From Pseudomonadota bacterium (GTDB lineage: Bacteria; Myxococcota_A; UBA796; GCA-2862545), in assembly GCA_023954855.1 (NCBI GenBank), contig JAGSGY010000017.1, positions 1 through 64,000 on the forward strand: DNA of 64,000 nt, written 5' to 3'. Position 1 is the first letter of the stretch; each line of letters begins with the position of its first letter. Of this stretch, positions 36,286 through 60,282 are shown one piece after another. The translations under genes and the position numbers were made by a program. The notes beneath the pieces were generated by a model. That model worked only from the letters and a program-made list of their open reading frames with translations. It was not told the origin of the DNA and did not search any database.

Positions 36286-37341
36286 ATGCGTATTCTGCCC
36301 CTTCTCGCCCTTCTCGCCTGTGGTGATGCCCCCGAGGCCCCCGAGGCCCCCGCCCCCGCTGAGCCCGAGGTTGCAGCCGAGGCCGCCGCGCCAAAGCACG
36401 CAGCCCTGTTCGCCGCGCTGCCCGCCGTCATGGAAGGCGAAGGAAAGTCGCGCACGACCGCGCAGATCGACCTCGGCCGCCAGCTCTACTACGACGCGCG
36501 CCTGTCGAAGAACCACGACATCAGCTGCAACTCCTGCCACCAGCTCGACGCCTTCGGCCAAGACGGTGAGGCCACGTCGCCCGGCCACAAGGGTCAGCGC
36601 GGCGGCCGCAGCAGCCCGACCACCTACAACGCCGCCCTGCACCTCTCGCAGTTCTGGGATGGTCGCGAGCCCGACGTCGAGGCCCAGGCCAAGGGACCGG
36701 TCCTGAACCCGATCGAGATGGCGATGGCCGACGAAGCCACGGTGGTCGCCGTGCTCAAGAGCATTCCCGGCTACCAGGAGGCCTTCAAGGCCGCCTTCCC
36801 GGAAGCCGAAGACGCCGTCACCTACCAGAACATGGCCGATGCCATCGGCGCCTTCGAGCGCGGCTTGGTCACCCCGTCTCCGTTCGATGCGTACCTCAAC
36901 GGCGACGAGGCCGCGCTCACCGATGCGCAGAAGGCCGGACTCGACGCCTACGTCGAGGCGGGCTGCACCACCTGCCACCTGGGCGTGGCAGTCGGCGGCT
37001 CGATGTACCAGAAGCTCGGCCTGGCCAAGCCCTACGAGACGGCCGACAAGGGTCGTGGCGACCTGACCGGCAACGAGGCCGACAACTACTTCTTCAAGGT
37101 CCCGAGCCTTCGGAACATCACCGAGACCGGCCCGTACCTGCACGACGGAAGCATCGCGACTCTCGAAGAGACCGTGAAGATCATGGGCGAGTACCAGCTC
37201 GGCAAGGAGCTCGACGACGCCCAGGTCTCAAGCATCGTCACCTTCCTCGGTGCGCTGAAGGGCACGCCGGATCCGTCGTACATCGCCAAGCCGGAGCTGC
37301 CCGAGTCCGGCCCCGAGACGCCCGCCGCAGACCCGAGCTGA
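36286..37341 (+). CDS. Di-haem cytochrome c peroxidase, lipoprotein
   Basis: A 351-residue CcpA/MauG-family protein. It has a short lipoprotein signal (LLAC), an Ala/Pro/Glu-rich linker of about 25 residues, then a first haem site CNSCH (Cys81) and second CTTCH (Cys227). Other family segments are [40 protein letters not shown] and [18 protein letters not shown]. It should reduce H2O2 to water in the periplasm using c-type cytochrome electrons. ACGGAG precedes the ATG. Confidence 0.93.
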
Positions 37342-50115: not shown

Positions 50116-50135
50116 CCTCCACTTCCTGGTGGAGG
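50116..50135 (+). promoter_or_regulatory. Hairpin covering the RT ribosome binding site
   Basis: CCTCCAC (50116-50122), a 6-base loop, and GTGGAGG (50129-50135) form a perfect 7-bp stem. The 3' arm contains the GGAGG Shine-Dalgarno of the reverse transcriptase, whose ATG is at 50141. Folding would limit RT translation. Confidence 0.6.
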
Positions 50136-50140
50136 GCCGC

Positions 50141-51787
50141 ATGAGCGACGACCGGCCGACCCGGCAGGAGCTCTACGACCGCATCCGCGGGTCCTCCAAA
50201 GACCAGGTCATCCTCGAAGAGATGATCCGGCTGGGCTTCTACCCCAAGGACGGCTCGCTTCCCGACGACCCGATTGCCGAGATCCAGCGCCTCGGGGACC
50301 TACACGGCCAGCTGCGAAAGCTGCGCCGCGACCACGCCGACCTGCACAACCTCGACAAGCTGAAGCGCCAGGCGAAGCGCGCCCGTATGGACGCCGCGCT
50401 GCAGCGTCGCAAAGAGACCAAAGCCAAGCGCCTCAAGGCGCGCCAAGACCGAGCCGCCGCCTGGGTCGTGCGCCAGTCCACCGAGCTACTGCACATTGGC
50501 GAAGGCGTGTCCGAAGGCCTCGGCCAGACCGAGGGAACCCCCCGCTACGCCCTGCCGAACCTGCAGGACGGCGCCGCGATCGCCGCCGCCATGGACATCG
50601 ATGTCGGCGAGCTGCGCTGGCTCGCGTACAACCGACGCGTCTCGAAAGTCAGCCACTACAAGCGGTTCTCGATTCCGAAAAAGACGGGCGGAGAACGCCT
50701 GATCTCAGCCCCGATGCCACGCCTGAAGGCGAGCCAACACTGGGTGCTGCGCAACATCCTCGACAAGGTGCCGCTTCACGACGCGGCGCACGGCTTTGTG
50801 ACCGGTCGCTCGATCGTCAGCAACGCCGCTCCGCACGTGAACGCGCGCATTGTCGTGAACATGGACCTGCAGGACTTCTTCCCGTCGATCAGCTGGGTCC
50901 GCGTGCGTGGCCTGTTCGCAAGCTTCGGCTACTCTCGCGAGGCGGCCACCGTGTTGGCCCTGCTCTGCACCGAGGCCAAGACTACGGCCATCGAGCTCGA
51001 CGGCGAGACCTGGCACGTGGCCCAGGGCGAGCGGGTCCTGCCGCAAGGCTCCCCTGCGAGTCCCGCGATCACCAACGCCCTGTGTTGGCAGCTCGACCGA
51101 CGCCTGTCCGGCCTGTGCGCCAAGCTCGGCTTTGTCTACACGCGCTACGCCGACGACCTCACCTTCTCGGCCAAGTCCGACGACGCCTACGTCGGCACGC
51201 TGCTCAAGGCCGTGGGTCAGATCGTCGAGGAAGAGGGCTTCACCGTGCACCCGAAGAAGACCCGGGTGATGCGGGCGGGCAGCCGGCAGGAGGTGACCGG
51301 CCTGGTCGTGAACAACGGGCTCTCGGTCAGCCGACCCCTACGCAGAAACTGGAAAGCCGCCTTGTTCCGCCTCGAGCGCGATGGCCCCGATGCGGTCGAG
51401 TTCGGTCACGGCAATGACGTGTTCGCCTCGCTGATCGGCTTTGCCGAGTTCGTCGCGATGGTCACCCCCAAGGTCGGCGCCCCCATGGTCGAGCGCGCTC
51501 GCGCCGCCGCGGCCGCGCATGGCTGGAAGGCCCGGGTTCGGTCGGTCGAGCCCAGCACCGGGTGGAAAGAGAAGCAGGCGGCATCCATCGCGGCCCGGAT
51601 CGATCGCACCGCTCAGGCCCATGCGTTTCTGTCTGGAGCCACGGCCCAGCCGCCCGAGGGGGCACCGACCGGGCCAAGGCCAACGTCGCAGACCGAGTCT
51701 GCAGCAGCCTCGACCGAGGCGGACTCCTCGGAGAGCACCCCCCATGAACCCGCCAAGTGGTGGGAGTTCTGGAGATGGTTCGAATGA
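50141..51787 (+). CDS. Retron reverse transcriptase
   Basis: A 548-residue retron RT. The retron hallmarks are present: N228-A-A-P-H232 (NAxxH) before VVNMDLQDFFPSI, QGSPASP, the polymerase site Y336-ADD, and V385-T-G (VTGLVVN). About 150 residues precede the RT core and are rich in Arg, Lys and coiled-coil-like helices, as in long myxobacterial retron RTs. About 50 C-terminal residues are low-complexity (Ser, Thr, Glu, Ala) and end WWEFWRWFE. It would make branched msDNA from the upstream RNA. Its stop overlaps the next start (ATGA). Confidence 0.95.
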   Translation: MSDDRPTRQELYDRIRGSSKDQVILEEMIRLGFYPKDGSLPDDPIAEIQRLGDLHGQLRKLRRDHADLHNLDKLKRQAKRARMDAALQRRKETKAKRLKARQDRAAAWVVRQSTELLHIGEGVSEGLGQTEGTPRYALPNLQDGAAIAAAMDIDVGELRWLAYNRRVSKVSHYKRFSIPKKTGGERLISAPMPRLKASQHWVLRNILDKVPLHDAAHGFVTGRSIVSNAAPHVNARIVVNMDLQDFFPSISWVRVRGLFASFGYSREAATVLALLCTEAKTTAIELDGETWHVAQGERVLPQGSPASPAITNALCWQLDRRLSGLCAKLGFVYTRYADDLTFSAKSDDAYVGTLLKAVGQIVEEEGFTVHPKKTRVMRAGSRQEVTGLVVNNGLSVSRPLRRNWKAALFRLERDGPDAVEFGHGNDVFASLIGFAEFVAMVTPKVGAPMVERARAAAAAHGWKARVRSVEPSTGWKEKQAASIAARIDRTAQAHAFLSGATAQPPEGAPTGPRPTSQTESAAASTEADSSESTPHEPAKWWEFWRWFE

Positions 51788-52209: not shown

Positions 52210-53202
52210 CTAGGGCGCGGCAGCCATCGCGGCCTCCAGCATCTCGTCGGTCCCTGCGGCGAGCACCTCTGGGTCGTTCAGCAGCTCGATGTCCACCGCG
52301 CAGCCCACGGCTTCGAAGATCTCGCCGTCCATCCGCCGGATCTCTTGGGTGGGTAGGTTGAAGAACCAGCCATTGGGCATCTCACGGCCGATAGAGGTCG
52401 CGAGCGCACCATTCGTGCGCACGCCGATGGTGGTGGTGTTCGGGAGCGCCTGAAGGCCAAGCACCATGCGCTCCCCAGCGCTGATGGTGTAGCTGTCCGT
52501 CAGCAACACGATGGGCAGGTCGATGGGGTCGTCGGTGCGGGACTGGATCGGCCAGGTGAACCAGTCGTCGAACTCGCCGCGCTCCGGGCCGGAGCGAGTG
52601 CGACTCTGGTGAATGTCCAGGTCCTGACCGGTCCACATCCCCAGCGCCCAGTAGGGGTAGGTGAAGGACCCACCGCCGTTGTGGCGCAGGTCGATGACGA
52701 GAGCACGCGCATCGGGATAGCGCTCCTCGATCTCCTCGAGCACGTATGTGTTGTCGTCCACCCAGGGGAACCACACGTAGGGTAGGCCCGGCTCCAGCTC
52801 GCCCAGAACGTAGCCATCCCAGGGCCCGATCTCGACGTCGGTCAGGTACTCGGACTTGACCACTTCGATGTCGAAGGCATCGTCGTCGGGCTTGTCGCGA
52901 ATGACGTGGTTTCCGTTGAAGTACTCGCGCCCCGGCGCACTCATGCCGATGTGACCGTCATCAAAGACGGCCAGCATGCCAGTGAGTGTCTCCCAGAGGT
53001 CGTCATCGGTGCTCTGCTCGTCGAGCGTGGGTCGCCAGGTGTCGTACTCGGCGTCCCAGTCCACACCGCGGATGTCGAACCCGCCGTACATCCCGTCGAA
53101 CTCCTCCCACACGTGGTCGAAGGTCGCGACCGCCGAGTCGTCAGGCGGAGTACACGCGCTGGCGATGGCGATGAGAGGAATGAGGGGAATGAGGGCGCGC
53201 AT
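52210..53202 (-). CDS. S41-family peptidase, lipoprotein
   Basis: A 330-residue protein with a short lipoprotein signal containing a triple LIP repeat and lipobox IASAC. The tail-specific-protease-like domain has VIDLRHNGGGSFTYPYW, the strand PIVLLTDSYTISAGERM with the putative nucleophile Ser in SAGE, and the later GVRTNGALATSIGREMPNG. There is an N-terminal helical region, but a PDZ domain is not obvious. It is likely a periplasmic or outer-membrane protease. Its start overlaps the stop of the outer-membrane protein gene (TAATG). Confidence 0.82.
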   Translation of the reverse strand: MRALIPLIPLIAIASACTPPDDSAVATFDHVWEEFDGMYGGFDIRGVDWDAEYDTWRPTLDEQSTDDDLWETLTGMLAVFDDGHIGMSAPGREYFNGNHVIRDKPDDDAFDIEVVKSEYLTDVEIGPWDGYVLGELEPGLPYVWFPWVDDNTYVLEEIEERYPDARALVIDLRHNGGGSFTYPYWALGMWTGQDLDIHQSRTRSGPERGEFDDWFTWPIQSRTDDPIDLPIVLLTDSYTISAGERMVLGLQALPNTTTIGVRTNGALATSIGREMPNGWFFNLPTQEIRRMDGEIFEAVGCAVDIELLNDPEVLAAGTDEMLEAAMAAAP

Positions 53203-53996
53203 TAGAACCTCCCGCGGAGACCGGCGGAAGCGCCGAGCTGGAGTTGGGTTGCAGGCCGCGGACTCGCGGCGTGGTAGGCGTCGAGCCGGGTCGAGACGAG
53301 CAGCGCCCAGCGAGGATGAAGGTCGATGGCGTAGCGAAGCCGCAGATGGCCCGCGGCGTACCGCACGGGGCTCACGACGCGGCCGTCGCCGATGTACCGA
53401 AGGATGACCAGGGGCACGTTCGCATCGCGGTTGTGCCAGATGTACTCGCCGTCGTGCAGCGCGTACGGAGACCGGCTCAACCACGTCACGGCGGGCGTCC
53501 AGCCCTCGACGTCCAGGCTGTGTCCCTTGGCCAGCTGAAGCCTGAGGTTGGCCCACGGTGCGAACTCGAAGGCCCCCACGTAGCCGCTGCCGCCATAGTG
53601 CCCGTAGTCCCAAGGCAGCGCCTCGAAGTGCCCGGCAACGGTGCCGCCGAGATCGAGCGACCAACGTTCGCCGCCGAGCTGCCCGCCCACCGCGTACTGC
53701 AGATCGGCGAAGGTCACATTCGTGGGGTGCGTACTGCGCGTGTCGCCGTCGCGGGTGTACTCCCAGGCCTGCTGGGAGCGAATTTTGGCGAGCTCAACGC
53801 CCAGGTTGAGTTTGTGGGTGAGCCGGTCGCCGCGGGCTGTCCAGCCGATCGCGATGGCGGGCCCGGTGCCCCGGTACGTCCTCGGGGACATCAGCTCATC
53901 CTGGCGCTGAATGTGGTCCACGCCGACCGTAAGGTCGAGTTCGTGGTCTGCGGCGCTGGCGAGCGGCGAGAGCAAGAGAAGAAGAAGAGCGGTCAC
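53202..53996 (-). CDS. Predicted outer-membrane beta-barrel protein
   Basis: A 264-residue protein with a signal (GTG start, TALLLLLLSPLASA) and regularly alternating aromatic and polar residues typical of beta-barrels (DHELDLTVGVDHIQ, GPAIAIGWTARGDRLTHKLNLGVELAKI, ADLQYAVGGQLGGERWSLDLGGTVAGH), ending in the C-terminal Phe common to barrels (LRGRF). The GTG at 53996 follows GGAGGC at a good distance. It is coupled to the S41 peptidase gene. Between it and the upstream porin gene are 170 bases without a gene. Confidence 0.7.
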   Translation of the reverse strand: MTALLLLLLSPLASAADHELDLTVGVDHIQRQDELMSPRTYRGTGPAIAIGWTARGDRLTHKLNLGVELAKIRSQQAWEYTRDGDTRSTHPTNVTFADLQYAVGGQLGGERWSLDLGGTVAGHFEALPWDYGHYGGSGYVGAFEFAPWANLRLQLAKGHSLDVEGWTPAVTWLSRSPYALHDGEYIWHNRDANVPLVILRYIGDGRVVSPVRYAAGHLRLRYAIDLHPRWALLVSTRLDAYHAASPRPATQLQLGASAGLRGRF

Positions 53997-54166
53997 GTTT
54001 GCCTCCTGACCCTTCGACACCGCCGGTACCCAAAGGAGGGAGGCGCTGTCACCAGCGGTAAGGAAACCCGGGTCACGGGAGCGCGTTGCACGCGACGCAC
54101 AAGTCCAACGGCCTGGGCCCTGTGGTCACAAACCCGGAGAGCTGCACTGCTCGGCGCGTCCTGGTG

Positions 54167-55450
54167 CTACTTCCGCCAGGACACCCGGGCGAGCAGCGTG
54201 TGGTTCGTGTCCCAGCGGTACCGACCAAGTCCGTTGACGAAGGAGTAGCCGCCGGCAAACGAGAAGTGGCCGACTCCGAAGACGTCGACGAAAAGGTCGC
54301 CATAGGCGGTGGGCGTCCACTCCTTGCGACCGTCCTGCCCGCGCCAGCCGCCGGCGATAGAGCCGTCGAAGGCCAAGCGCTCCAGCGGCTCCCAGACGAG
54401 CTGAGCGCTGCTGTAGATGCCGGGACCGCCGCCCCACTGGTAGGCGTGCTGCTGCAGGGTCAGATCGAGGGGTCGCCCAAACAAGCCCGCGGCCGTCCAG
54501 CCCACGCGCGCCACGCCGTAGGTCTGCTCCCCGACCTCGCCCGGCCGATACGAACCCGAGAAGGTGAGGTTGTGCACCGCATCCGCGCCCACCTGGACGG
54601 GAACTCGCGCACTCAGCTCCACCTGGTGATGCACGCGCTCGTCGAGGGCTCCGATCTCGAGCGCCTGCTCGAGACCCGTCGAGCGCCGCGCCCACCGGGT
54701 GAGCGCCGGGTCGCGCTCATTGGTCAGCAGCAGCGCCGCCGCACTCCACGCCCGCCAGCCTGCTGTGACTCGAGCATCCCCGAGGCGGGTCTGAGCCTGA
54801 GCACGAAGGTCCGCCGGTCGCACAGGGTGGGCCGCATCGCCAAAGAGCAGGTCGGCCCGAGAAGACAGGCGTAGCCAGTCGGTGACGTCGTGACGCACGT
54901 CGACGACCGCCGAAGCGCGATCGAGGCCGGCGGCCGCCACGAGCACCTCACCGAGAAGGTCGAAGCTCGTGTTCTTTCCGTCGTAGTGCAGGGTTGGGCC
55001 ACCGCCGAAGCGCGCCGCCGGAATCGTGGAGAATGGATCGGGGGCCTCGCCGGCGAAGCCGCCAACCCGCCAGCCGTCGCCGAACTTCACTGTCGCTGCG
55101 GCGCCATCGATGAGCCGAAAGCCACCGCCTTCCGGAGCAAAGCGCCCGAAGGTGAGCGCGGGTCCAGGCTCGGTGTACACCGCAAGCTCGCGAATGCGCG
55201 CACGGTCGATCATGCCCTCGCCAGGCTCGTCGATCAGGCGAATGCCGGCGCGCCCGGCAAACCGGAACTGCCCCCAGCTCTGCTCTTCGCCGCCGAGGTT
55301 CAGCCGAAGCCGGGCGCCGGAGTACCACTCAAGAGCAGGCTCCTCGACCGCATGCCCAACCTCACCGATGAGCCCGGTCGTGACGCGCGCGTAGTCCCGA
55401 GACTCACTCTGAGCCCAGCTCGCGCTGAGGATGGCGAGGAGCCAGATCAC
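54167..55450 (-). CDS. Outer-membrane porin-like protein of the multihaem cytochrome operon
   Basis: A 427-residue predicted beta-barrel: signal (VIWLLAILSASWA) and many alternating strands (ARLRLNLGGEEQSWGQFRFAGRAGIRL, TVKFGDGWRVGGFAGEA, ELSARVPVQVGADAVHNLTFSGSY). The last residues are WRK rather than Phe. It starts with GTG overlapping the 6-haem cytochrome stop (GTGA), so the two are coupled. Barrels of this kind insulate outer-membrane cytochromes in electron conduits. That role is inferred from context, not from a conserved motif. Confidence 0.72.
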   Translation of the reverse strand: MIWLLAILSASWAQSESRDYARVTTGLIGEVGHAVEEPALEWYSGARLRLNLGGEEQSWGQFRFAGRAGIRLIDEPGEGMIDRARIRELAVYTEPGPALTFGRFAPEGGGFRLIDGAAATVKFGDGWRVGGFAGEAPDPFSTIPAARFGGGPTLHYDGKNTSFDLLGEVLVAAAGLDRASAVVDVRHDVTDWLRLSSRADLLFGDAAHPVRPADLRAQAQTRLGDARVTAGWRAWSAAALLLTNERDPALTRWARRSTGLEQALEIGALDERVHHQVELSARVPVQVGADAVHNLTFSGSYRPGEVGEQTYGVARVGWTAAGLFGRPLDLTLQQHAYQWGGGPGIYSSAQLVWEPLERLAFDGSIAGGWRGQDGRKEWTPTAYGDLFVDVFGVGHFSFAGGYSFVNGLGRYRWDTNHTLLARVSWRK

Positions 55451-55956
55451 TCTTGTCCATCCGGGTGACACTCGATGCAGGCCGAGTCCTCATTCCGAAA
55501 GCCCGGCACGTCATCGTGCTCGTTTCGCTCGTTGGGATGGCAGGTCAGGCAACTCCAGTTCGTCGAGGTCGCGGGCTCCCCGTGGCAGGCGTTGCACTCG
55601 CCATCGGCGTTGCCGTGCTGGCGCGGGAAGGTGTGATTGCCGAAGCCGGTCTGCTCCCAGTTGATGCCCGCGGTGTGGCAGCCCTCGCAGTTGTCGAGCC
55701 AGGGGTGGTCGAGCTGGGGGTTCGCGGCCAAGCGGTCCTCAATGGTCGCGAGGTGGCACTGCGTGCAGGTGGCGCCACGCAACTCCTCGAAAGGCGCATC
55801 CACGGGGGCATGGCACGTCGCGCAGGTCACCTCGGCGTGGCGTCCCGCCAGATCGAAGTCGGCATGTGGAGCGGTCGGCGCCTCACACGAGACCCCCACA
55901 AGCGACGCCATCAGGCCGGCACTGAGGCCGAAAGCATAGAGTCGAGCAGCGGTCAT
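55447..55956 (-). CDS. Hexahaem c-type cytochrome
   Basis: A 169-residue exported cytochrome with six CxxCH motifs (CATCH, CTQCH, CEGCH, CNACH, CLTCH, CIECH). The N-terminal segment FGLSAGLMASLVGVSC may be a lipoprotein signal. It lies between the 27-haem cytochrome (ATGA overlap upstream) and the barrel (GTGA overlap downstream), and probably passes electrons at the outer membrane. Confidence 0.85.
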   Translation of the reverse strand: MTAARLYAFGLSAGLMASLVGVSCEAPTAPHADFDLAGRHAEVTCATCHAPVDAPFEELRGATCTQCHLATIEDRLAANPQLDHPWLDNCEGCHTAGINWEQTGFGNHTFPRQHGNADGECNACHGEPATSTNWSCLTCHPNERNEHDDVPGFRNEDSACIECHPDGQE

Positions 55957-58058
55957 GGCGAAGCCCTGTGCGGATTGAAGGTGCGCTCCCAGTCGTAGGG
56001 CTGATGACAGCCCTCGCAGCGAAGGTCGTTCGGGTCGCGGTGCTCGCCCGGCTCGAAGTCCCGAAGGTGGCAGCTCACGCAGTCCTGCGGGGTGCCGATG
56101 TAGCCGGCGGCGTGACAGTCGTTGCAGGCCGCCATGCGGTGTGCGCCGCGCAACGAGAACCCGGTGCTCGCGTGACGGAAGCTCGTGCGCAGCCAGTCCA
56201 CTTCGCCGTGGCAGGTGGAGCAGTCCGAGCCGAGCAGGTTGCGGTGGGGATCCTCGTCGGCGTGGCAGCTCTCGCACTCGCGCGGTGCCGCAGACATCGG
56301 CTTTCCGGTGCCGTGGCAGGCGACGCAGGTGACGGTCTCGTGGGCTCCATGCAGCCCGTAGCCGGTGACTTCGTGGCCGAGCGGTCCGAGGTTGGCCGGC
56401 ATCCAGCCGGCGGTCTGGTGGCACTCCCCGCAGGTCTCGCCAAAGTGCTCGGGTGGGCTGTCGTCGACGTGGCAGCTCTCGCAGGCCGTCTTCTGGCCCT
56501 CGAAAGCGGGGTCGCTATGGCAGTCATTGCAGCCCACATCGGTGTGCGACCCGTCGAGCGCGAACTCGGTCTCTGACGCGTGGTCGAAGCGCACATCGAC
56601 CCAGTCGGTGGTGGCGTGGCAGTCATCGCACGTGTCGGCGGCGAGCTTGCCGTTGTGGGGCTCGTCCTTGGCGTGGCAGTCGTTGCAGCTCTCGTGCTCG
56701 ACCGGATGCCAGACCCAGCCCTCTTGCTGCGTGCGACCGAGGTTGAACAGCGCCGCTTCTTGCGCCACCGCTGCGGCCTGGGTCGCCGTGTGCTCGAGAC
56801 CTTCTGGGTAGTGACAGCTCTCGCACTCCACCTCTGAATGCTTGCCCTTCAGCGAGAAGGCCGTGCGGCCGTGGTCGAAGTCCTCGACGTCCCAGGTGCC
56901 GTCGAGGTGGCACTCAGCGCAGGGAGACGGGTCGAAGCGCCCCTCGTGCTCATCGTCATGGCAGGTGTCGCAGCCATCGAAAGGAAGGCTGGCGAAGGTG
57001 CTCGCAGGCCCGTCCCCGTGACACTCATCGCAGCCGACCTTGGCGTGGTCGCGCTGAAGCGGAAAGTCGGTCTGGTCGTGATCGAAGCCCGACAGCGCAA
57101 AGTCCGGAAGGAACTCGCTGTGGCAGGCATCGCAGTCGCGCGGCGCGAACTGCCCTTCGTGGGGGTCCGCATGGCAACTGGAGCACTCTGCATGCGGAAG
57201 CGGCTTGTAGATCGCCGCCTCGCCGTCGCCGTGACAGGCCTCACAGCTGACCTTTCGGTGCACGCCCTTGAGGGGGTAGTGGCTCGCCCTGTGGCTGAAC
57301 TTACGCAGCGCAAAGTCGGCGGTGTGCACGTCGTGGCAGTCTTCGCAGGCCTTGGGTGCGAACTGGTCACCGTGGATATTGTCGTGGCAGTCCTCGCATT
57401 CGCCGGACTCGACCGGCACGAAGGTCCAGTCCTCGTGGCAGTCCTCGCAGCCGACCTCGACATGTTCACCCTCGAGCACGAAGTCGACTTGCTCGCTCTG
57501 GGTGTGGTCGAAGACCTTGAGGTCGAGGGGCAGTGCGGGCCAGTCTTCCTTGACCTCGTGGCAGGTGTCGCAGCTCTGAAGCAGCGCCCGGTCGCTCTTC
57601 ACGGCGCCATGCGGGTCCTCGTGGCAGTTCATGCACGTCTGCTCGAGCCCCGTCCAGACATCGGGCTCTTCGTGGCAGTCGCTGCACTCGATTTCGCCGT
57701 GCTCACCTTCGAGGCGAAAGCCGGTCGAGTCGTGATCAAAGACCTCTTGCTCTTCCTCTTCGAAGTTCACCATGTCGAAGTCGGCGCCGCGGTGATCGGG
57801 ATGGCAGCTGTGGCAGGTGGCTCCCTTGTCGGCGTGAAAGCCCGTCTTGGTGCGGACCTGCTCCTCGACGCGGTCGTGGCAGTCCATGCACAGCGCCGCC
57901 GAGACCCCTGAGCCCACCTCATGACAGGAGGTGCACTGGGTGATGCCTGTGAGGTCCGCATGCGCCGACGAGAGCTCGCCAGGACTTAGGAAGTCGCCCA
58001 GGCCCTGGGCCGAAGCGGTGTTCATCCACGCAGAGAAGAGGAGCAAAAGCATCGTCAT
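55953..58058 (-). CDS. 27-haem c-type cytochrome
   Basis: A 701-residue periplasmic cytochrome with a signal peptide (MTMLLLLFSAWMNTASA) and 27 CxxCH haem motifs, on average one per 26 residues. The chain shows modular repeats of about 60-70 residues with FDH...F.L.G.H..V.C..CH (e.g. HTQSEQVDFVLEGEHVEVGCEDCH, FDHDQTDFPLQRDHAKVGCDECH), as in large deltaproteobacterial multihaem cytochromes. Many motifs are followed by acidic residues. It overlaps both neighbours (ATGA). It is the likely periplasm-spanning wire of the operon. Confidence 0.92.
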   Translation of the reverse strand: MTMLLLLFSAWMNTASAQGLGDFLSPGELSSAHADLTGITQCTSCHEVGSGVSAALCMDCHDRVEEQVRTKTGFHADKGATCHSCHPDHRGADFDMVNFEEEEQEVFDHDSTGFRLEGEHGEIECSDCHEEPDVWTGLEQTCMNCHEDPHGAVKSDRALLQSCDTCHEVKEDWPALPLDLKVFDHTQSEQVDFVLEGEHVEVGCEDCHEDWTFVPVESGECEDCHDNIHGDQFAPKACEDCHDVHTADFALRKFSHRASHYPLKGVHRKVSCEACHGDGEAAIYKPLPHAECSSCHADPHEGQFAPRDCDACHSEFLPDFALSGFDHDQTDFPLQRDHAKVGCDECHGDGPASTFASLPFDGCDTCHDDEHEGRFDPSPCAECHLDGTWDVEDFDHGRTAFSLKGKHSEVECESCHYPEGLEHTATQAAAVAQEAALFNLGRTQQEGWVWHPVEHESCNDCHAKDEPHNGKLAADTCDDCHATTDWVDVRFDHASETEFALDGSHTDVGCNDCHSDPAFEGQKTACESCHVDDSPPEHFGETCGECHQTAGWMPANLGPLGHEVTGYGLHGAHETVTCVACHGTGKPMSAAPRECESCHADEDPHRNLLGSDCSTCHGEVDWLRTSFRHASTGFSLRGAHRMAACNDCHAAGYIGTPQDCVSCHLRDFEPGEHRDPNDLRCEGCHQPYDWERTFNPHRASP

Positions 58059-59365
58059 GCCAGCTTCTCCCGCCGCTTGCCGAAGTGCCGCTCGACAGAG
58101 ATCCCAGCGCTCTGCAGGAAGGCAGTGGGCAGCACACCGCCGGCGAACACGAACACATGGTCGTTGGCGACGACTTCTTCGGCGCCCTGCACATCCAGGG
58201 TCACTCGATCAATGCCAATCGAGGACACGGTGCTGTTGAGCAGCATGCGCACCTTGCCAGCGTCCGCAGCGGCCTTGACGGCAGCATCATTCACCGCATT
58301 TGCCCGGCTGAACACATCCTTGCGGTAGGACAGCGTCACCCGCGTGCCCGCCTGCTTCGAAAGCGCCACCGCGGCTTCGAGGGCAGAGTCGCCGCCCCCT
58401 ACCACCAACACGTGGCTGTGCTGGAAGTTCTCGGGTTCGAGCAGCCGGTACACGACCTTCTCGCGCTCCTCGCCGGGCACCTCGAGTCGACGCGGCGTGC
58501 CGCGACGGCCAACGGTGAGCAAAACCCGCGTCGCGCGAATCTGGCGCTCGGTCGTCTGCACGTCGAAGCCCTCGGCCGCCTTCTCGACGGCCAGCACCCC
58601 TTCCTTCTCTGCGATCGGCAGGCCCGAAGCCTCGACCGCACGCTCGAGAATGGCGATCAGCTCTTCTTTGAGAAGCGTCCCCGGAGGCACTGTCGGCTGG
58701 CCTGGAAGCGTGAATCCATGCGAGGTCACCAGCTTCTGGCGCGGATAGTGCCGAATGGCGCCGCCAAACTGGTCCTGCTCCAAGATCACCGCCGAGAGCC
58801 CGAGTTCCTGCGCCCGAAGCCCCGCGGCAATGCCCGCCGGTCCAGCACCCACAATGATGAGGTCATGAGCGACGTCGTCGCGCTTCGGAATCTCCTTCGC
58901 GATGTACTCGACCGCTTCGGTGCCCTGCTTCACGGCATTGGCGATCAGACCCATTCCGCCGAGCTCTCCGGCAATGTACAGACCGGGCACATTGCTCATG
59001 AACTCGGGATTCACGTCCGGAAGATCGACACCGCGACGCTCACTGCCGAACACGAGCTCGATCGCCGACGTTGGACAGGCCGCCGCACAGGCTCCGTGCC
59101 CGACACAGTGCGAGCCATCGACGAACTTGGCGTGGCCATCCACCACCCTCAAGATCTTGCCCTCGGGACAGGCCCGCACGCAGGTCGCGCAGCCAATGCA
59201 CTGGCTGGCATCGATGTAGGGGCGCAAGCTCATCGGCTCGTTGCGACCCAAGGCCTCCGCCGCCTCCCAGAGCTCGCGGGCTTCGGCCTCTTCCCGTCGG
59301 AACAGCAGGTAGGCCGGCAGCACGAAGAAGACGGCGATGAGGGCGATGACGATTGCGTAGGCCAT
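58055..59365 (-). CDS. FAD/NAD(P)-dependent oxidoreductase with two 4Fe-4S motifs
   Basis: A 436-residue protein anchored by one N-terminal helix (AYAIVIALIAVFFVLPAYLLF). A ferredoxin domain follows: CIGCATCVRACP, then CVGHGACAAACP in which His replaces one Cys. The rest is a TrxR-like flavoprotein with an FAD motif (IIVGAGPAGIAAG) and a second Rossmann motif (LVVGGGDSALEAAVAL) but no CxxC redox disulfide, closer to ferredoxin-NADP reductase-like members. It may feed electrons from NAD(P)H or a quinone to the cytochromes. It overlaps the 27-haem gene (ATGA) and the b-type gene (TGATG). Confidence 0.85.
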   Translation of the reverse strand: MAYAIVIALIAVFFVLPAYLLFRREEAEARELWEAAEALGRNEPMSLRPYIDASQCIGCATCVRACPEGKILRVVDGHAKFVDGSHCVGHGACAAACPTSAIELVFGSERRGVDLPDVNPEFMSNVPGLYIAGELGGMGLIANAVKQGTEAVEYIAKEIPKRDDVAHDLIIVGAGPAGIAAGLRAQELGLSAVILEQDQFGGAIRHYPRQKLVTSHGFTLPGQPTVPPGTLLKEELIAILERAVEASGLPIAEKEGVLAVEKAAEGFDVQTTERQIRATRVLLTVGRRGTPRRLEVPGEEREKVVYRLLEPENFQHSHVLVVGGGDSALEAAVALSKQAGTRVTLSYRKDVFSRANAVNDAAVKAAADAGKVRMLLNSTVSSIGIDRVTLDVQGAEEVVANDHVFVFAGGVLPTAFLQSAGISVERHFGKRREKLA

Positions 59366-60282
59366 CAGGTGAACAGCTCCATGAGCGTTCCGATGGCGCC
59401 GCCGAACAAGATGGCGGTGAGCACGTGGAGCGAGACAATCAGATACATGGCGCCGGCGAGGGGTCGGTGAAAGAGGTGCCAGTAACGGAAGAGTCGGCCG
59501 ACCACGCGCATCGACTCTACACCCCCCTTCAGGCGCAGCTGCTCGTGGAGCATGCCCCGCGCGTGGGCCTGCACCTCGGGCGGCAGACCGGCGCTTGCGA
59601 GAAGCCGGTTCATCTCGCCGCGACGGCGTCCCATCTCACCCCGAAGGCGCCAGAGACCGACCACCGTGTGCGCCTGCATGTCGAGGTCGCGAACCAGGCT
59701 CACGGCCTGTCCGATCTGGTCGCCATGCGAGCTGGCCGTCGCGGCCACAAGCTCACCGCGCAGGTCGAGCAAGGTCTCGCGGGCCTCGCTCCACGCCAGC
59801 GCTTGACCGCCCTGCATGCGTGGAAACCACCCGTAGACGTAGCGACCAAAGGCGCCCGATAGCGCAACCAGCACCATGCACCAGAAGCCGACGGCGATGA
59901 GGCCACGAGGGGTCTCGAAGGCGGTGTGCATCAGGATGAACACCGGGCCCATCACCCCACAGATGATGTGGAAACGAAGCCAGTGCACCACGTTGCCGAG
60001 TGCGGTCACTTGAATCAGCCACTTCCGGAGCGTGTACAGAAGCATGGCGCACATGAGGAAGGTGCCGAACACACCGTAGAACAAGCCAAGGCCGGCGCCC
60101 GGGCCGTACATGAAGCGCAGTTCCGACTCGATGCGCTGTTCGTAAGGGAGGAGGTAGTACTCAAGGCCGCTTGCCAGCCCCACCGCCGCTCCGACCGCGA
60201 GGGCCAGGCCGAATGCGCCCAACAGCGCGCTTGCCACCAACCAACCAGCACTCTTTCGAAGCGTACTCACGTGCCGTGCCAT
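59365..60282 (-). CDS. Membrane b-type cytochrome
   Basis: A 305-residue protein with about five to six membrane helices. Candidate haem-b ligands are paired His residues in HWLRFHIICGVMGPVFILMHT and WHLFHRPLAGAMYLIVSLHVLT. A soluble insert of about 120 residues lies between the helices (ARETLLDLRGELVAATASSHGD...). It resembles quinol-oxidising b cytochromes or ferric-reductase-like domains. It is the first gene of the conduit operon; the flavoprotein gene overlaps its stop. Confidence 0.78.
   Translation of the reverse strand: MARHVSTLRKSAGWLVASALLGAFGLALAVGAAVGLASGLEYYLLPYEQRIESELRFMYGPGAGLGLFYGVFGTFLMCAMLLYTLRKWLIQVTALGNVVHWLRFHIICGVMGPVFILMHTAFETPRGLIAVGFWCMVLVALSGAFGRYVYGWFPRMQGGQALAWSEARETLLDLRGELVAATASSHGDQIGQAVSLVRDLDMQAHTVVGLWRLRGEMGRRRGEMNRLLASAGLPPEVQAHARGMLHEQLRLKGGVESMRVVGRLFRYWHLFHRPLAGAMYLIVSLHVLTAILFGGAIGTLMELFT

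Follow-up and report, generated by a model that had tools for sequence, protein, structure and literature searches.

The operon and its products

We will call the window the whole stretch of 64,000 nucleotides analysed here. On its minus strand there are five contiguous, overlapping genes (Table 1), which the original prediction described as an operon for a membrane b-type cytochrome, a membrane-anchored FAD/4Fe-4S oxidoreductase, cytochromes with 27 and 6 haems and an outer-membrane barrel. All five open reading frames are present. The two cytochromes have exactly the stated numbers of haem motifs, and variants of the type CX3CH or CX4CH do not occur in them. The GC content of the operon agrees with that of the rest of the window.

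Table 1. The five genes of the operon, in the order of transcription
Gene product	Position	Strand	Features
cytB	59365..60282	-	305 aa; PCC3-type inner-membrane protein, predicted di-haem b cytochrome, 5 TM
FAD/2x[Fe-S] oxidoreductase (flavoprotein)	58055..59365	-	436 aa; N-terminal TM anchor (predicted)
27-haem periplasmic cytochrome	55953..58058	-	701 aa; 27 CXXCH; signal peptide
6-haem cytochrome	55447..55956	-	169 aa; 6 CXXCH; probable lipoprotein (C24)
Outer-membrane beta-barrel (porin, predicted)	54167..55471	-	434 aa from GTG 55471; 427 aa from GTG 55450

The original prediction gave overlapping sequences for all four junctions. The first three are found in the DNA as they had been read: TGATG, ATGA and ATGA. 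The fourth, GTGA between the 6-haem gene and the barrel gene, requires a barrel start at 55450. A start at GTG 55471 looks at least as likely: it gives a 25-base overlap with the 6-haem gene and a signal peptide with an arginine in its n-region.

The first protein, cytB, has two HX13H pairs, which are its predicted haem ligands: H105 and H119 on TM3, H272 and H286 on TM5. Each pair is preceded by W-x3, so that the motif WX3HX13H appears twice, and the four histidines are invariant in an alignment of 45 homologues. TM4 contains the sequence SGAFG (residues 142–146). From the pattern of positive charges we predict that the N-terminus and the large TM4–TM5 loop are cytoplasmic and that the C-terminus lies outside. 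No family of Pfam or NCBIfam matched cytB. This includes the FRD family (PF01794) of Pfam, and its likeness to NOX and FRE enzymes is one of motif and topology only.

The 27-haem protein gave only weak matches to small cytochromes in a sequence search of the PDB. The 6-haem protein has one N-terminal cysteine in addition to those of its six CXXCH motifs. Its own lipobox is weak (VGVSC); the relatives of this gene have lipobox-like ends LSAC, LGC, LMSC and ASSC, and the protein is probably a lipoprotein. Elsewhere in the window, at 36286–37341 on the plus strand, there is a lipoprotein-like open reading frame of 351 aa with two CXXCH motifs.

The barrel had been claimed to be an outer-membrane protein, and it is indeed predicted to be a porin. 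The AlphaFold model, of modest confidence (mean pLDDT 60, pTM 0.55), has about 20 long antiparallel strands and an N-terminal signal helix; a low-confidence C-terminal tail may add two strands, which would give a total of about 20–22. Among the best PDB matches listed by Foldseek almost all are outer-membrane porins, the best one with 9e-6. No Pfam or NCBIfam family matched the barrel; homologues are present in relatives of the class to which the window belongs. Directly downstream of the operon, on the same strand (53202–54020), we find a secreted, beta-rich protein with a C-terminal phenylalanine, which is probably another outer-membrane protein. It was considered as a sixth member of the operon and rejected, since it has no homologue in related loci.

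The flavoprotein

The second gene codes for a protein with two iron-sulfur motifs, C56..C59..C62..C66 and C87..H90..C93..C97, followed by FAD and NAD(P) domains (Pfam: Pyr_redox_3, 2e-45; Fer4_10, 3e-11). Its anchor helix is followed by the sequence RREE, from which an N-out/C-in topology is predicted, with the redox domains in the cytoplasm. The AlphaFold model has a pLDDT of 90.7. When compared with solved structures by Foldseek its best match is YpdA (2e-24), followed by thioredoxin reductase (TrxR) and TrxR-type ferredoxin-NADP+ reductases (FNR). The FAD and NAD(P) domains are 25–27% identical to those of TrxR-type FNRs and YpdA (Bdr).

A peculiarity of this protein is the order of its segments. 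The segment NVPGLYIAGELGGMGLIANAVKQG, usually C-terminal in TrxR-like domains, precedes the first Rossmann motif. If residues 117–160 (approximately) are shifted in silico to the C-terminus, the match to the Deinococcus TrxR is extended from 167–419 to the full length and its score rises from 61.4 to 67.9 bits. The domain is thus a circularly permuted version of the TrxR/FNR fold. It differs from TrxR-type FNRs and YpdA in this permutation, in its membrane anchor, in having its own iron-sulfur clusters and in the lack of an active-site cysteine: the protein has seven cysteines, all of them within the two iron-sulfur motifs, and a disulfide chemistry like that of its TrxR and YpdA relatives is therefore not expected. 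Two basic residues, R348 and R354, are retained at positions which in TrxR bind the 2'-phosphate of NADPH. Together with the fold matches to TrxR-type FNRs and the absence of other cysteines, they point to an FNR-like chemistry, and from homology we infer that the protein binds NAD(P)H.

The second iron-sulfur motif is CxGHxxCxxxCP, with a histidine instead of the second cysteine, in 107 of 109 homologous open reading frames. The second position of the first motif is occupied by serine (59), cysteine (35, the window among them) or threonine, alanine or glycine (13). As non-cysteine residues appear in both motifs in the family, the type and potential of the clusters are uncertain, which counts against the model of electron export proposed below. 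H90 possibly corresponds to a histidine-ligated or a 3Fe-4S cluster.

Relation to PCC3 and occurrence in other genomes

Judged from motifs and homology, the operon is a PCC3-type cluster as described by He et al. (2017; PMC5566968). In their PCC3 passages the inner-membrane protein has about 300 aa, five TM helices, SGXXG on TM4 and two WX3HX13H motifs on TM3 and TM5. The sequence, hydropathy and motifs of cytB agree with this description, and it matches the inner-membrane protein of a Gallionella PCC3 locus (BLASTP, 2e-18). The flavoprotein is 46% identical to its counterpart beside that cluster. PCC3 periplasmic cytochromes have 21, 24 or 27 haems, the last being the number found here. When its CXXCH motifs are masked, the 27-haem protein still matches the first cytochromes of PCC3 loci: 4e-23 with a 23-haem protein of Bacteroidetes, 3e-15 with a 24-haem protein of Gallionellaceae. 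With the second cytochromes of those loci the values are 5e-4 or worse, with the exception of one Bacteroidetes locus (L096, 2e-14). An iterative profile of the barrel also reaches PCC3 porins. The direct comparison with distant PCC3 porin profiles is marginal (E 0.0015 among 819 targets; hhalign 7e-4); reversed or unrelated profiles have lower scores. The reading of the operon as a trans-envelope conduit, which had been proposed from its gene content, is supported. Neither of the two outcomes named as refutations came about: the barrel is predicted to be a porin of the outer membrane, and other genomes have the same gene order.

The five-TM inner-membrane protein with its motifs, the large periplasmic cytochrome and the clustering of the genes are common to PCC3 and the window; the second cytochrome, variable in PCC3, and the predicted porin agree in position. 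The differences are three. The second cytochrome, predicted to be extracellular, occupies the usual position but has 6 haems, fewer than the 10–35 listed for Gallionellaceae. The barrel is small and has no N-terminal extension of the kind seen in most PCC3 porins. Finally the operon contains a flavoprotein gene, whereas none is described in the PCC3 passages of the main texts searched, the figures and supplements of which may draw it as a neighbour.

Other known systems are less similar. PCC4, in the account of He et al., also has a porin, periplasmic multihaem cytochromes and an inner-membrane protein with the same motifs, and in its subgroup II an iron-sulfur gene adjoins the latter. According to the same authors this protein has no overall homology with that of PCC3, and PCC4 has three periplasmic cytochromes with 4, 5 and 10 haems; the window has 27 and 6 haems and a flavoprotein, so that we do not assign it to PCC4. 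MtrCAB, MtoAB and PioAB share the combination of a porin with periplasmic and outer cytochromes. In the window a b cytochrome and a flavoprotein are used and the operon has no decahaem MtrA/MtoA: with 27 and 6 CXXCH motifs, and a score of 29 bits against a cut-off of 192 for the DmsE-type decahaem model, membership in this group was rejected.

We searched 187 relatives with cytB and found matches in 42 genomes; the flavoprotein is present in 28 of the 39 loci inspected. In the opposite direction, a scan of genome contigs with an alignment of the flavoprotein alone gave 491 relatives. The counts that follow cover the best 80 of these 491 and do not represent a random sample. A cytB gene is found at a distance of 6 kb or less in 65 of the 80 loci, Gallionellaceae included, and a cytochrome with at least 15 haems in 59. 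If only loci from this set with at least 4 kb of flanking sequence on both sides are counted, cytB is beside the flavoprotein in 41 out of 45. In seven loci (L056, L064, L068–L071 and L075) both proteins form a single open reading frame of 665–788 aa. Their evolutionary distances are correlated (r = 0.82, reached in none of 2000 permutations), a value that is confounded by shared species history. Since the same parts are found together in dozens of other genomes, their grouping is not due to chance. The flavoprotein, which had been considered an unusual component, instead regularly accompanies the b-cytochrome of PCC3.

The arrangement of the genes is variable. The order of the window (cytB, flavoprotein, large cytochrome, second cytochrome, porin) is matched in about ten loci, mostly from Bacteroidetes (L096, L105, L108, L124, L125, L148, L149 and L152 are examples). 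The flavoprotein gene of Proteobacteria, among them Gallionellaceae (L101, L115, L143), usually adjoins the b-cytochrome gene and is divergent from it. Members of the window's own family and class (L037, L041) have a rotated order: 27-haem cytochrome, second cytochrome, barrel, cytB and flavoprotein. Two other relatives (L080, L082) are deltaproteobacterial MAGs. Searching the literature for PCC3 in Myxococcota or Bacteroidetes we found nothing among the accessible papers; the module is here extended to Bacteroidetes and to the phylum of the window. Very large cytochromes are found beside the module in three loci (L103, L138, L156): two from symbiont genomes have 67 haems (1687 and 1697 aa) and one from an Azonexaceae MAG has 74 (1970 aa).

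Seven loci have a different module (L047, L059, L063, L066, L067, L074, L076). In them cytB is the C-terminal part of an open reading frame with several 4Fe-4S motifs, often followed by a cytochrome with 18–30 haems. Pfam was run on three of these seven; that of L076 has a weak match to a cyclic-nucleotide-binding domain. The flavoprotein is therefore not obligatory, which also counts against the export model.

Electron input and direction of flow

The original prediction compared the inner-membrane part with the quinol oxidase of known conduits. The flavoprotein, through its association and fusion with cytB, argues for coupling to NAD(P)H or ferredoxin on the cytoplasmic side, instead of a quinol oxidase or besides it. 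The predicted topologies agree with this interpretation: with the C-terminus of cytB outside and the anchor of the flavoprotein N-out/C-in, the two proteins together would have six TM helices and a dehydrogenase on the cytoplasmic side, an architecture known from NADPH oxidases (NOX), to which iron-sulfur clusters are added.

We consider it fairly probable (about 0.6) that the operon codes for a complete PCC3-type trans-envelope conduit with its own cytoplasmic subunit for electron input, fed by NAD(P)H or ferredoxin and working outward. NAD(P)H or reduced ferredoxin would reduce the FAD of the anchored flavoprotein, which would pass electrons through its two iron-sulfur clusters, possibly by direct transfer, to the inner haem b of cytB (H105/H272). 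From the outer haem b (H119/H286) they would enter the 27-haem cytochrome, which may span the periplasm, and then the 6-haem lipoprotein. The latter, placed in or at the barrel, would reduce an extracellular acceptor such as a metal oxide, humics or another redox partner. The outward direction is suggested by the fact that electrons would move to a higher potential and would follow the electrical gradient. It speaks against the proposal that carrying electrons outward from NAD(P)H by way of a di-haem b cytochrome spends membrane potential and would by itself conserve no energy.

The opposite direction has been published. In the PCC3 passages of He et al. (PMC5566968) the cluster is modelled as exchanging electrons with the quinone pool and serving Fe(II) oxidation, with inward flow, a framing which counts against the outward model. 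Electrons from Fe(II), Mn(II) or a mineral would then pass through the porin and the cytochromes to cytB and the quinones, and the flavoprotein would take a share for the reduction of NAD(P)+. PCC3 is reported to be frequent in iron-oxidising Gallionellaceae (PMC10734462) and the inner-membrane component of one of its copies to be up during iron oxidation in Sideroxydans CL21 (PMC12442390), in the parts of these papers that concern PCC3; furthermore multihaem conduits are able to run either way. In Sideroxydans lithotrophicus ES-1, on the other hand, both PCC3 clusters are reported to be downregulated on Fe(II) in the corresponding part of PMC8788666, and many of the carriers are Bacteroidetes not known to be iron oxidisers. 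To reduce NAD(P)+ along this path, electrons would have to be driven uphill and also against the membrane potential, and the cluster has no ion-coupled subunit. The genome itself, rated 97% complete and tested family by family, has three haem-copper oxidase genes; neither RuBisCO nor NapC/CymA was found in it, so a CymA-like quinol dehydrogenase was rejected as a component. A heterotroph with oxygen respiration fits this gene content better than a lithoautotroph. We regard inward flow as rather unlikely for this operon.

Still less probable, in our opinion, is a surface reduction of metals or oxidants with an assimilatory or detoxifying function, of the type of NOX and ferric reductases, instead of a respiratory one. 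The inner-membrane part does resemble these enzymes in its predicted pair of haems b, bound by the HX13H histidines, and in a FAD-NAD(P)H domain that follows six TM helices on the cytoplasmic side, and the module occurs in Bacteroidetes, of which Emticicia aquatica (L148) is an example. The dehydrogenase of the window differs from theirs in being a permuted, TrxR/FNR-like domain and in having two iron-sulfur clusters, and its electrons would go to multihaem cytochromes. A 27-haem relay with a second cytochrome and a porin far exceeds the known needs of a ferric reductase. It is also quite improbable that the flavoprotein stands outside the electron chain, acting as a redox sensor in the cytoplasm, as a disulfide-type reductase or as a factor for cytochrome maturation. 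YpdA and thioredoxin reductases are among its closest solved relatives and in Proteobacteria its gene is divergently transcribed, outside the operon, but the lack of a catalytic cysteine, the two iron-sulfur clusters, the membrane anchor and the fusion with cytB in seven loci all stand against such a role.

The export model has consequences beyond this operon. Among the porin-cytochrome clusters of environmental bacteria that await characterisation, PCC3 is one of the common ones, and in the passages searched an extracellular electron transfer role was demonstrated for no PCC3. The models published so far start from the quinone pool and from Fe(II) oxidation; an NAD(P)H/Fe-S flavoprotein which is conserved and sometimes fused to cytB would be an alternative input and would alter the meaning of PCC3 genes as markers of iron oxidation. 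It looks like a standard but overlooked part of PCC3 and suggests that the system is fed by NAD(P)H and not from the quinone pool only. More tentatively, we think it possible that PCC3 as a class consists of NAD(P)H-linked export machines and not of quinone-linked iron oxidases. They would have a NOX-like core, made up of FAD, two iron-sulfur clusters with unusual ligands and two haems b, and would bypass the quinones, with cytB as a socket for either permuted FNR-like or cyclic-nucleotide/Fe-S modules.

About 2.4 kb past the 3' end of the operon, on the plus strand (50129–51787), there is a gene for a reverse transcriptase of retron type XIII (PADLOC RT_XIII, 7e-178).
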